From positions 1-63,921 of the forward strand of contig JALWEG010000061.1 of NCBI GenBank assembly GCA_027014155.1: a DNA stretch of 63,921 bases, written 5' to 3'. Shown one piece after another: positions 31,774-35,096 of this stretch (positions are counted from its first letter, which is position 1; each line of letters starts with the position of its first letter). Below the pieces are notes generated by a model. That model ran no database searches, was not told the origin of the DNA, and worked only from the letters and a program-made list of their open reading frames with translations. The position numbers and the translations under genes are program-made. Origin of the DNA: Aquificaceae bacterium (GTDB taxonomy: Bacteria; Aquificota; Aquificia; Aquificales; Aquificaceae).

Positions 31774-31801
31774 TGTTGCAACATTGTTGCAACATGCAAC
31801 A
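31774..31801 (+). promoter_or_regulatory. Tandem palindromic upstream activator sites
   Basis: Two perfect 10-bp palindromes TGTTGCAACA at 31774-31783 and 31785-31794, exactly 11 bp apart, followed by a half site TGCAACA (31795-31801). They lie about 85-110 bp upstream of the predicted transcript start, where sigma-54 activators usually bind. Confidence 0.65.
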
Positions 31802-31857
31802 TAGAGAGGTTTCCGCTAAATTTCCGTAATTGTTTGACAAAACGTATCTTTTAAGTT

Positions 31858-31873
31858 TGGCACTGTATATGCA
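31858..31873 (+). promoter_or_regulatory. Sigma-54 (RpoN) promoter
   Basis: TGGCAC-TGTAT-ATGCA with the invariant GG (31859-31860) and GC (31871-31872) 12 bp apart, as required for -24/-12 promoters. Only one conserved base differs (A for T in TTGCA). Start of transcription is expected near 31884. A TTGACA at 31834 has no good -10 partner at normal spacing. Confidence 0.7.
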
Positions 31874-31899
31874 TATAAGAATAATGTGATGCGGTTAAG

Positions 31900-31990
31900 G
31901 AGCGTCCAAAAGCCGCCTGCCGGAGGTATGGACGCTCTTAAAAGGGCGGGGTAGAAATACGCCGGCACCGGGCTGAAGGTTTAGGCTCGG
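31900..31990 (+). ncRNA. Structured 5' leader RNA element 1 (novel pseudoknot motif)
   Basis: Leader of the first DUF2173 gene. P1 is a perfect 8-bp helix GAGCGTCC (31900-31907) with GGACGCTC (31930-31937). Its 22-nt loop contains CCGCC (31913-31917) and TGCCGG (31918-31923), which complement GGCGG (31945-31949) and CCGGCA (31962-31967) downstream. A further hairpin P4 is formed by CCGGGCT (31968-31974) and GGCTCGG (31984-31990). The Shine-Dalgarno GGGAGGT begins 6-8 nt later. The same design recurs before the second DUF2173 gene with compensating changes. I do not match it to a known riboswitch or ribozyme. Confidence 0.6.
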
Positions 31991-32007
31991 GATAGAGGGA
32001 GGTCATT

Positions 32008-32349
32008 ATGGCTACCCTAAGCAAGCTCAAGGAGCTTATGTCGCTTCCTGGAGCCGTCGCCGCGGGAGAGTTTTCGGACGACGGCAAGCTGCTGGCCTAC
32101 TACGGCGACATAGACGAGAAGGCGGCGGAGATTGCAGCGCTGATGTGTGCCGCCAACAAGGCCATGGGCAACATGCAGGCCAAGGGCTGGAGTGCCTACA
32201 CGGGGCAAGGCGGATTCTTCCCCGTCGTGGGATTTGCCGTTGCCGGAGGCAAGTATGCCGCCTGCATAATGGGCAACGTAGGCGTGTTCGTTGAAATGGA
32301 CAAGGCCGACTTTGATAAGACCTTTGAAACCCTGTCCAAGTACATCTAA
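32008..32349 (+). CDS. DUF2173 protein, copy 1
   Basis: Small cytoplasmic protein of 113 aa: LSKLKELMSLPGAVAAGEFS, DGKLLAYYGD, AALMCAANKAMGNMQAKGW, then a beta-rich half (VVGFAVAGGKYAACIMGNVG) and FDKTFETLSKYI. These blocks match the DUF2173 family of chemolithotrophs and thermophiles, of unknown function; the size and PG-x-VAAG-x-F-x-DG opening recall Roadblock-like folds. A conserved Cys lies in ALMCAAN. Strong ribosome binding site (GGGAGGT). Probably sigma-54 dependent, as first gene of the unit. Two stop codons in tandem (TAATAA) end the frame. Confidence 0.8.
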   Translation: MATLSKLKELMSLPGAVAAGEFSDDGKLLAYYGDIDEKAAEIAALMCAANKAMGNMQAKGWSAYTGQGGFFPVVGFAVAGGKYAACIMGNVGVFVEMDKADFDKTFETLSKYI

Positions 32350-32353
32350 TAAG

Positions 32354-32601
32354 GAGATTGTGCAAAAGGAGGCAAGGAGTGCAAGGAAGCGGACTGTGTA
32401 AGCATGGGACGGTGCTCCGGCTGCCGAAGGAAGGAACCGGAGTGCTGCGGTGTTCCTCCTTGAGGACACTGTACAATCTCATGCAAGTGCAGTCCGTAGC
32501 GGGGCTAACCGCCCTCCTCCCTGACTCTCAGGAGAATCCAGGAGAGGGTCTCCCTCTAAGTGAGGGACGTGGGAGGAACCCCATAAAGGGGCGTGAGTTC
32601 C
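32354..32601 (+). ncRNA. Densely paired intergenic RNA between the two DUF2173 genes
   Basis: About 250 nt with no convincing gene but many long complementarities. GAGATTGTGCA (32354-32364) pairs with TGTACAATCTC (32470-32480). CGGACTG (32390-32396) pairs with CAGTCCG (32490-32496), crossing the former. Others: CTCCGG/CCGGAG (32415-32420/32437-32442), TCCTCCC/GGGAGGA (32515-32521/32571-32577), TCCCTC/GAGGGA (32551-32556/32562-32567) and CCCC/GGGG (32579-32582/32588-32591). With element 2 it forms a leader or intercistronic RNA of about 380 nt. Function unknown; an independent ncRNA or a processing element is possible. Confidence 0.5.
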
Positions 32602-32607
32602 TACGAC

Positions 32608-32730
32608 CTGGGGTAGGGACTATGGCTGGGGAAATAGCGCCTGCCGGGATTATCCCCAGTCTGAAGAGGCGCAATACAAGTAGCCCGGCACCTGAGCTGT
32701 GCAAGGTTGCACAGTTTGGGTAATCAGGTG
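32608..32730 (+). ncRNA. Structured leader RNA element 2 (same motif as 31900-31990)
   Basis: P1 is CTGGGGA (32626-32632) with TCCCCAG (32653-32659). Its 20-nt loop holds GCGCCT (32637-32642) and TGCCGG (32642-32647), matching AGGCGC (32667-32672) and CCGGCA (32685-32690). Loop and downstream strand align closely with element 1, while P1 is wholly different yet still paired. P4 is CACCTGA with TCAGGTG (32724-32730) enclosing CTGTGCAA/TTGCACAG. The P4 3' arm contains AGGTG, the only Shine-Dalgarno of the next gene, so P4 would hide it. A second CTGGGG at 32608-32613 could replace the P1 5' arm, suggesting switching. Confidence 0.6.
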
Positions 32731-32736
32731 TGAAAG

Positions 32737-33069
32737 ATGGCGAACCTTGACAAGCTCTTGGAAGTGAAAGGCGTTTGGGCCGCCGGAGAGTTTAACGATG
32801 ACGGCACCTTGGTAGCTTACAAGGGAGACATATCCGAAGAGCATGCCGCTATGGCCGCTCAGATGTGTGCTGCCAACAACGCGATGGCCAAGATGCAGTG
32901 CGACGGCTACACCGCCTTCTCGGGACAGGAGTGGACTCCCTTGATAGGCTGGGCGCTAACGGGTCCCAAGTATTCCGTGTGCGTTGTCGGTAATGTGGGC
33001 GTGTTTGTAAACAACGACGAGGTATCTTTCAACGAGGTGTTCCAAGCTCTCAGAGAAGCCCAGTCTTGA
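32737..33069 (+). CDS. DUF2173 protein, copy 2
   Basis: 110 aa, a paralogue of the product of 32008-32349: LDKLLEVKGVWAAGEFNDDG, KGDISEEHAAMAAQMCAANN, AMAKMQCDGYTAFSGQE, LIGWALTGPKYSVCVVGNVG and VFVNNDEVSFNEVFQAL. The Cys in QMCAANN is shared with copy 1; two more Cys (KMQCDG, SVCVVG) are not. The ATG at 32737 follows AGGTG by six bases, and that site lies in a stem. Function unknown; the duplicated gene plus duplicated RNA element suggests whole-unit duplication with divergence. Confidence 0.8.
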   Translation: MANLDKLLEVKGVWAAGEFNDDGTLVAYKGDISEEHAAMAAQMCAANNAMAKMQCDGYTAFSGQEWTPLIGWALTGPKYSVCVVGNVGVFVNNDEVSFNEVFQALREAQS

Positions 33070-33524: not shown

Positions 33525-35096
33525 ATGGACTTCTCCGTATTTGATTCCCTGTTTGATAGCGTCTTAGTTATAAACGAGGAGAGGAGGGTTATCTACTTCA
33601 ACGCCTCGGCAAAGGCCATACTGCCTCAGCTGCAGATAGGTATGCCTTGCCGGGGTTTGTTCTCTCTTTGCAACAGATGTCCTATGGATTTTGTAATGGA
33701 AGAGAGAAAAGGAGTGCAGATATACGATGTGGAGATAAAGGATACCAACGTTCATGTCTGCCACAGCATGACCCCTGTGTTTGAAGGTGATAGGTTTGTA
33801 GGCGTAGTTGAGATATTCAAAGACGTTAGCAGGGTTATATATCTAATGGAGGAGGTTAACCGCCAGAAGGAGTTTGTTGAGGTGGTTTTAGATTCCATAG
33901 TTGAGGCGGTTTTGATACTTGATGCGGAAGGAAAGGTTATAAACCACAACACCATAGCCAAGAGAATGCTCTGTAGAGAAGATGAGACTCTGGTAGGCAA
34001 AAGCCTATCGCAGCTTATAAACCTCTCCTTGGAGGACTTGGACATAGGTGAGAGGAGCGATTTTTACATAGAGACCCCCTGCGGGAAGCAGAAGGCTTCC
34101 TTGCTCCTTTCCAAGCTAAAGCGGGGTGAGGGGTATGTCCTTTCCCTTTACGTCGTCCCAGATGTGAACGTTTACAACATGGAAGAAGGGAGTTTCATAG
34201 TCAAGAGCAAATCCCTGTCCCGTGTCTTAGACACGGTCAAGTCCATAGCCGAGTATAACGTCAACGTCCTGATAGAGGGGGAGACAGGCACGGGTAAGAG
34301 CTTAATAGCCAAGTACATACATAACCTATCCCCCAGAAGACACGAACCTTTTGTAAAGGTCAACTGTGCCGCAATACCTGAAAACCTTTTAGAGGCCGAG
34401 CTATTCGGTTATGTGAAGGGTGCCTTTACCGGAGCGGTGAAGGACAAGCCGGGCAAGGTGGAGGTGGCCGAAGGGGGAACACTATTCTTGGACGAGATTT
34501 CCGAACTTCCCCTACACCTGCAGGCCAAGATTCTACATTTGGTTCAAGAGAAAGAATACGAGAGGGTAGGAGATATAAAGACCCGTAAAGCCAACGTGAG
34601 GATAGTTGCCGCTACCAACAGAGACTTGAGACTCTTGGTGTCTCAGGGAAAGTTCAGAGAAGACCTGTACTACAGGTTGAACGTCGTCAGGATAGAGCTG
34701 CCCCCTCTGAGGGCGAGAAGAGAGGATATACCTGTGCTGGTCAACCACTTTATAGAGAGATTTAACAGCATTCACAACAAGCGTATTAAAGGGGTGTCCG
34801 CTGAGGCCCTTGAGGTGCTGATGGAGTATCCATATCCCGGAAACGTTAGAGAGCTTGAGAACATAGTGGAGAGGGCGGTTATAGTGTGCACGGGCGCATA
34901 CATAAAGAGGGAAGACCTACCCGAGGAGGTCAAAAGGAGGGAAATCCTCTGCGAGGAAGGGCAGGAGTGCGATGAGGCTCAGCTTATAAGAGAAGCCTTA
35001 GAAAAGGCCGGAGGGAACAAATCCCTCGCAGCCAAGATTCTCGGCATTCACAGGACCACCCTGTGGAGGAAGATGAAAGAATACGGCTTAGGTTGA
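33525..35096 (+). CDS. PAS-domain sigma-54-dependent activator (NtrC family)
   Basis: 523-aa enhancer-binding protein. Two PAS domains: DFSVFDSLFDSVLVINEERR and, after RQKEFVEVVLDSIVEAVL, a second. The first has a Cys cluster (GMPCRGLFSLCNRCPMDF) that could bind a metal or sense redox. AAA+ core: Walker A GETGTGKSLIAKYI, sigma-54-contacting GAFTGA (YVKGAFTGAVKDK), LFLDEISELP. C-terminal Fis-type helix-turn-helix SLAAKILGIHRTTLWRKMKE. Its place directly after the DUF2173/SCP2 genes suggests that it activates their sigma-54 promoter at 31858, through the palindromes at 31774-31801. Confidence 0.92.
   Translation: MDFSVFDSLFDSVLVINEERRVIYFNASAKAILPQLQIGMPCRGLFSLCNRCPMDFVMEERKGVQIYDVEIKDTNVHVCHSMTPVFEGDRFVGVVEIFKDVSRVIYLMEEVNRQKEFVEVVLDSIVEAVLILDAEGKVINHNTIAKRMLCREDETLVGKSLSQLINLSLEDLDIGERSDFYIETPCGKQKASLLLSKLKRGEGYVLSLYVVPDVNVYNMEEGSFIVKSKSLSRVLDTVKSIAEYNVNVLIEGETGTGKSLIAKYIHNLSPRRHEPFVKVNCAAIPENLLEAELFGYVKGAFTGAVKDKPGKVEVAEGGTLFLDEISELPLHLQAKILHLVQEKEYERVGDIKTRKANVRIVAATNRDLRLLVSQGKFREDLYYRLNVVRIELPPLRARREDIPVLVNHFIERFNSIHNKRIKGVSAEALEVLMEYPYPGNVRELENIVERAVIVCTGAYIKREDLPEEVKRREILCEEGQECDEAQLIREALEKAGGNKSLAAKILGIHRTTLWRKMKEYGLG

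Follow-up and report, generated by a model that had tools for sequence, protein, structure and literature searches.

The window, that is the whole 63,921-nucleotide stretch of Aquificaceae DNA that was analysed, holds two genes coding for DUF2173 proteins, and in front of each lies a structured RNA element, here called E1 and E2. The features of the locus are given below (SD, Shine-Dalgarno sequence).

31774-31801, + strand: repeated TGTTGCAACA palindromes, direct repeats 5' of the promoter; candidate sigma-54 activator site
31857-31872, + strand: predicted sigma-54-type promoter (GG-N10-GC) of gene 1, predicted start at about 31884; from the consensus in the window and relatives
31895-31902, + strand: TTAAGGAG, putative remnant of the ancestral SD, overlapped by the 5' end of E1 P1
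31900-31908/31929-31937, + strand: P1 hairpin of E1, seen in the sequence
31913-31917 (CCGCC) with 31945-31949 (GGCGG), + strand: helix A of E1, from sequence and covariation
31918-31923 (TGCCGG) with 31962-31967 (CCGGCA), + strand: helix B of E1, from sequence and covariation
31950-31960, + strand: conserved 11-nt linker of E1, from the alignment
31968-31990, + strand: P4 hairpin of E1, from the sequence and comparison of orthologous leaders
31997-32003, + strand: GGGAGGT, SD now used by gene 1, preceding ATG 32008
32008-32349, + strand: DUF2173 gene 1 (PF09941, E 1.8e-39), downstream of E1
32351-32356, + strand: AAGGAG, left SD half of the gene 2 site, adjoining the left end of the element
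32357-32728, + strand: non-autonomous IS607-type element in the SD of gene 2, left end shortened
32430-32702, + strand: 3' reading-frame remnant of tnpB, matching TnpB residues 392-487 and overlapping the RNA domain
32607-32611 (CCTGG) with 32724-32728 (TCAGG), + strand: terminal pseudoknot of E2, putative guide-RNA scaffold
32624-32690, + strand: core of E2 (P1, A, linker, B)
32624-32632/32653-32661, + strand: P1 of E2
32637-32641 (GCGCC) with 32668-32672 (GGCGC), + strand: helix A of E2
32642-32648 (TGCCGGG) with 32684-32690 (CCCGGCA), + strand: helix B of E2
32673-32683, + strand: linker of E2
32690-32721, + strand: P4 hairpin of E2, directly 5' of the right end AATCAGG
32737-33069, + strand: DUF2173 gene 2 (PF09941, E 2.7e-41), downstream of E2

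The first-pass annotation had placed E1 at 31900-31990 and E2 at 32608-32730 and described a common pseudoknotted architecture. Both elements lie at these positions, every helix which it named is present in both, and the change from C-G to G-C which it quoted between them is real. The terminal pseudoknot is absent in E1; in E2 the right end AATCAGG is the SD for the ATG of gene 2 at 32737. The RNAfold z-scores of E1 and E2 say little because RNAfold works without pseudoknots. Rfam 15 has no match to the element: at gathering score only two tRNAs were found in the window, a permissive search of the window region, run up to E 5, gave none, and on 11 further loci nothing relevant was seen up to E 1 (one meaningless match at E 0.5). 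A known RNA family was rejected on these cmscan results at gathering and permissive E-values. A twister or HDV-like ribozyme was also rejected, Rfam being silent; the strand order and conserved bases of these ribozymes differ from those of the element.

A covariance model was built from 23 copies and used for a census of 136 Aquificota genomes. The same element was found in 83 of them, far beyond chance, with 16 copies in the window genome, 18 in G018 and 35 in G051. In all 143 copies were extracted, and those examined closely are the best-scoring ones. A start codon lies 3-14 nt downstream, in sense, in 131 of 139 testable copies; the proportion is 12.5% at random sites, and on the antisense side 4 of 135 have one. 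About one third of the copies keep a transposon context, and the rest are short (94 by a simple text pattern, which misplaces a few copies between the two classes). The layout of a short copy is P1, loop, A', linker, B' and usually P4, followed by SD and ATG; these copies are often intra-operonic, 57 of the 94 lying within 140 nt after the stop codon of an upstream sense gene. The downstream genes, named by inspecting the sequences, include rpoA, rpsK, infC, tsf, fusA, rpmF, rpsU, rho, two hfq types and ftsH, and further mreB, ftsZ, acpP, trx, ndk, ppa, glnA and ilvC. Their functions are mixed (ribosomal, RNA polymerase, chaperone, lipid, energy and cell division) and mostly housekeeping, with no single pathway; ftsH, hfq, acpP, mreB, rho and ppa recur across genera. 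Outside Aquificota there was no match to plasmid DNA, and no viral contig matched the exact consensus pattern.

The claim of a pseudoknotted RNA with compensatory changes was borne out on 89 distinct sequences. In these, P1, helices A and B and the fourth hairpin P4 have 96.7% of cells paired and two-sided changes in 24 of 30 pairs, counts which lean to P1 and P4 because the covariance model was fitted on them, helices A and B being outside the model. The covariation score is 0.474 against 0.144 for shuffled alignments, none of 500 shuffles reached the observed value on any of five measures, and with the partner moved by one column only 42-45% of cells remain paired. In P1, 99.0% paired, all nine pairs have two-sided change, and P4 is about 90% paired with every pair covarying. 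Helix A is 100% paired and near-invariant apart from one covarying pair (C-G in 62, G-C in 27); in helix B, where pairing is 98.3%, five pairs covary. The RNA thus has a conserved structured core with covariation, as riboswitch aptamers do.

P1, A and B each cross the other two, and it had been proposed that crossing helices may be alternatives, as in a switch. This is not favoured. All 90 aligned copies have a spacer of exactly 11 nt between A' and B', which contains the near-invariant motif UANAARUA (UA-N-AA-R-UA); a linker of fixed length with near-invariant bases suggests one fold in which A and B form at once, with the spacer along the joint helix, an ABCABC pseudotrefoil. Two separate alternative pseudoknots are weakened by the same fixed linker, the length of which could also be caused by a ligand site. 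The ABCABC pattern was found in 51 sequences compared with 1688 simple ABAB pseudoknots in one survey (PMC3390330); the Aquificota RNA likewise has three all-crossing helices but is a new sequence family.

E2 forms the 3' end of an IS607-type element without TnpB that has inserted in the SD of gene 2. This copy has no tnpA, nearly all of tnpB is gone and the first part of the left end is lost. A DNA search with 32350-32736 gave a second full copy, 96% identical, in the same genome (G000:C17:24617-24989), as well as partial copies, and full-length copies 75-80% identical in other genera. The empty site in relatives reads TAA...AAGGAGGT...ATG, and when the junctions of E2 are compared with relatives the insertion is at GG without target duplication, and the two ends fit a single GG exchange. 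E1, a short remnant, lies between the sigma-54-type promoter and gene 1. It is probably an older, internally deleted copy which has been kept as leader of that gene, and E2 a TnpB-less copy with shortened left end; E1 and E2 are probably two copies of one mobile-element-derived RNA.

The longer relatives code for a TnpB of about 490 amino acids, the reading frame of which continues through the RNA domain (TIGR01765, E 3.9e-22; TIGR01766, E 4e-17; the score with the NF040570 guided_TnpB model was below cut-off). The RuvC D-E-D triad is invariant in 15 of 15 aligned TnpB proteins, and zinc-ribbon cysteines are absent from the Aquificota TnpB sequences inspected; the Aquificota family (L240-L260 and others) apparently has no zinc ribbon. 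Similar TnpB-related proteins are common on Thermus plasmids. One complete element, L254, consists of a left end with the junction AAGGAGG/TAGGCAACAGTTG, TnpA, TnpB, the RNA and a right end TTTACCAGG directly 5' of an ATG; its TnpA is of the IS607 type (MerR PF00376, E 1.1e-10; Resolvase PF00239, E 6.6e-26). The left ends adjoin GGAGG (junction GGAGG/T) in L254 and further loci, and at the rpoA site the empty sequence TAAGGAGGAACAGATG of G052 corresponds to TGACGGAGGTTTT(core...)TAGATAGGTGAATCTTTATG in its genus mate G051. Insertion of IS607 takes place at GG and leaves no duplication (PMC6188088), the TAM AGGAG is used by 18 of 22 strains with IS607 TnpBs (PMC11061315), and GGAGG is the SD of Aquificales (PMC4227106); landing in SDs is therefore predicted in Aquificales genomes.

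Of 52 IS-class copies, 49 form a terminal pseudoknot of 5 bp in which CCTGG or CTTGG pairs with CCAGG, and in L260 it is compensated by the exchanged pair CCAGGTCA/TGACCTGG. The right-end RNA has the anatomy of a TnpB guide-RNA scaffold and would function as one. ISFba1-type IS607 transposons with a reRNA derived from RAGATH-18 (PMC11061315) likewise have a serine-recombinase TnpA, a RuvC TnpB, a 3' RNA with pseudoknots, an AGGAG-like left motif and a GG target. Unlike these, the Aquificota RNA lacks the RAGATH-18 motif, judged from the absence of an Rfam match (window region up to E 5, 11 further loci up to E 1), the TnpB belongs to a TnpB-related branch without zinc ribbon, and the elements add the pseudotrefoil core, cluster at SDs and leave stand-alone leaders. 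The omega-RNA of ISDra2 TnpB is likewise a scaffold beside TnpB in which guide-adjacent terminal nucleotides pair with an upstream strand; according to the accessible part of that paper (PMC10097598) it has other stems and no P1/A/B core, and host-leader copies are not reported there.

The first-pass annotation took the RNA as a leader specific for DUF2173 genes, and both window copies do stand 5' of such genes. A profile search with PF09941 in the 136 Aquificota genomes speaks against it. In nearly all genomes having both genes these are neighbours about 18 nt apart, the gap holding a plain SD AAGGAGGT and the ATG. In the relatives gene 1 is preceded by TTGCAACA repeats and a promoter of sigma-54 type (GG-N10-GC), and its leader, which holds the SD before the ATG, is short. 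The extra 100 nt or so between the promoter and the start of gene 1 are found only in the window genome (E1) and a sister of the same genus (L038), and the 388-nt intergenic gap which holds E2 only in the window genome. E1 and L038 probably descend from one insertion, because they have common loop and linker states which differ from the rest of the RNA family. Homologous leaders at the DUF2173 genes of relatives are thus limited to this sister, about 40 relatives are without the element, and dozens of unrelated genes carry it. The proposed link to DUF2173 is contradicted by this distribution, and we give it practically no credence. That both copies stand before DUF2173 genes follows from the insertion of a mobile-element family at SDs throughout the genome.

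Several findings bear on how the core relates to the transposons. A TnpB-related element from a plasmid of Thermus thermophilus has a right end built of CCTGG, a hairpin and GACCAGG, the same skeleton without the core, and the covariance model matched neither this element nor two further Thermus loci; in L260 the core is absent and the rest kept. L133 of G051 consists of a left end TTGGCAACCGTTGAAAAGTG, the core and a right end AACCAGG without genes, and L224 is a shorter remnant; both are intermediates from transposon to leader. An SD-like AGGAG/GGAGG stands directly 5' of P1 in 17 of 91 short copies, compared with 4 in a control stretch, and the origin by insertion is therefore evident for some short copies and presumed for the rest. 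Orthologous leaders of mreB, rpmF and tatA keep the core while the flanks diverge. Compensation is seen in the fusA leaders of one genus, where a G-C of P1 has become A-T (P4 is missing from them), in the acpP leaders, where P4 covaries, and between E1 and L038, where P1 and P4 are re-paired with different sequence. Within one genus fusA, ftsH and acpP carry the element in each species; repeated independent insertion is possible at some orthologous pairs. The core is kept with compensation before genes, also in TnpB-free genomes, and therefore probably works for the host gene.

We think it rather probable, from comparison of the copies, that the RNA is a transposon-delivered, cis-acting translation-initiation leader in Aquificota. 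The comparison shows that an IS607-type lineage with a TnpA serine recombinase and TnpB inserts in SDs, with its left end after AGGAGG and its right end reading ..AACCAG/G, such that an AGG at the right end substitutes for the SD; the copies therefore lie in sense directly 5' of start codons. The right end has the anatomy of the TnpB guide-RNA scaffold, with the terminal pseudoknot CCTGG/CCAGG beside the guide and, inside, a core of about 70 nt made of the three mutually crossing helices, which is missing in the Thermus relative. The core also persists without tnpA and tnpB before many genes, conserved with compensation while the flanks diverge. At translation initiation the knot and P4 may stack 5' of the SD, hold it open and insulate it from upstream sequence; perhaps the core also stabilises mRNA in hyperthermophiles. 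A cis-acting translation leader is favoured because the element adjoins the SD whatever the promoter, operon position or gene function, and because it replaces the SD context which insertion destroys.

The main rival is a regulated translational switch, because the unpaired bases are near-invariant; this is more constancy than a passive spacer calls for, and it would fit a switch bound by a ligand or protein. The UANAARUA linker and an AAA loop would bind a metabolite or protein, P4 and the SD would form the expression platform, and the transposons would have copied the RNA to leave control over their insertions with the host. The constancy of these bases and of the 11-nt linker across class-level divergence, a core conserved while P4 varies, and the recurrence of hfq, rho, ftsH, acpP and mreB across genera all fit such a switch. 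Translational riboswitches of the preQ1 and SAM-II type have a pseudoknot next to the SD, a conserved core and a variable outer hairpin. The Aquificota RNA resembles them in all three respects; it differs in its three mutually crossing helices, mixed gene set, mobile distribution and lack of a known ligand. With a gene set of no coherent pathway, no Rfam relative, a frequently intra-operonic position, and 35 copies in G051 against none in its genus mate G053, which is unlike a fixed regulon, we regard the switch as a tentative and rather unlikely reading. It has also to be considered that TnpB binding conserves the core, the short copies being decaying remnants or guide donors in trans. In IS607 TnpB elements that have a terminal pseudoknot the core does occupy the place of the guide RNA, and pseudoknots are present in known TnpB/reRNA scaffolds (PMC10097598, PMC11061315). 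However, the strand needed for the terminal pseudoknot is missing from the short copies, G018 with its 18 copies and G063 both host the core and gave no TnpB match, the Thermus relative and L260 do without the core, and orthologous short copies show compensatory change. Dependence on TnpB only is weakened by the TnpB-free genomes, a pure guide role for the short copies is unlikely, and as an account of the whole family we find the scaffold improbable. G051 has only five TnpBs, none of which was found with a core-type protein as query.

The transposon-delivered leader leads to a wider proposal, to which we give about an even chance. The IS607 lineage would land in SDs, the pseudotrefoil within its guide-RNA scaffold would take over translation initiation, and stripped copies would have been selected before dozens of housekeeping genes, as a new class of exapted RNA that controls or enhances translation. 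If this is true, a transposon offsets the harm done to its host by landing in a ribosome binding site in that it supplies a structured replacement, and a transposon RNA has become a reusable, selected leader before ribosomal, polymerase and cell-division genes. It would also connect the guide RNAs of TnpB-type systems with leaders that act in translation, and the rare ABCABC topology would gain an example backed by covariation. Whether knotted leaders raise translation at high temperature, or regulate it, could then readily be tested.

Some further observations were made. The TTGCAACA repeats, seen in nearly all of about 40 relatives 5' of the sigma-54-type promoter that serves the DUF2173 pair, are likely to bind an activator, for which the PAS/sigma-54 activator coded at 33525-35096 is a possible candidate. 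A DUF2173 protein 88% identical to the window protein is coded on a contig (isolate J001, locus L044) whose label, Acidobacteria, looks wrong. The 35 copies of G051 compare with none detected in six genus mates (G052-G057), each of which has at least one wider-family TnpB match. Genomes of genus g9 have two hfq-like genes each (L120, L157, L123, L125, L146; L270-L281), and hfq-type genes 3' of the element recur in three genera. The ilvC gene of the window genome (L068, G000:C36) has its own short leader copy.
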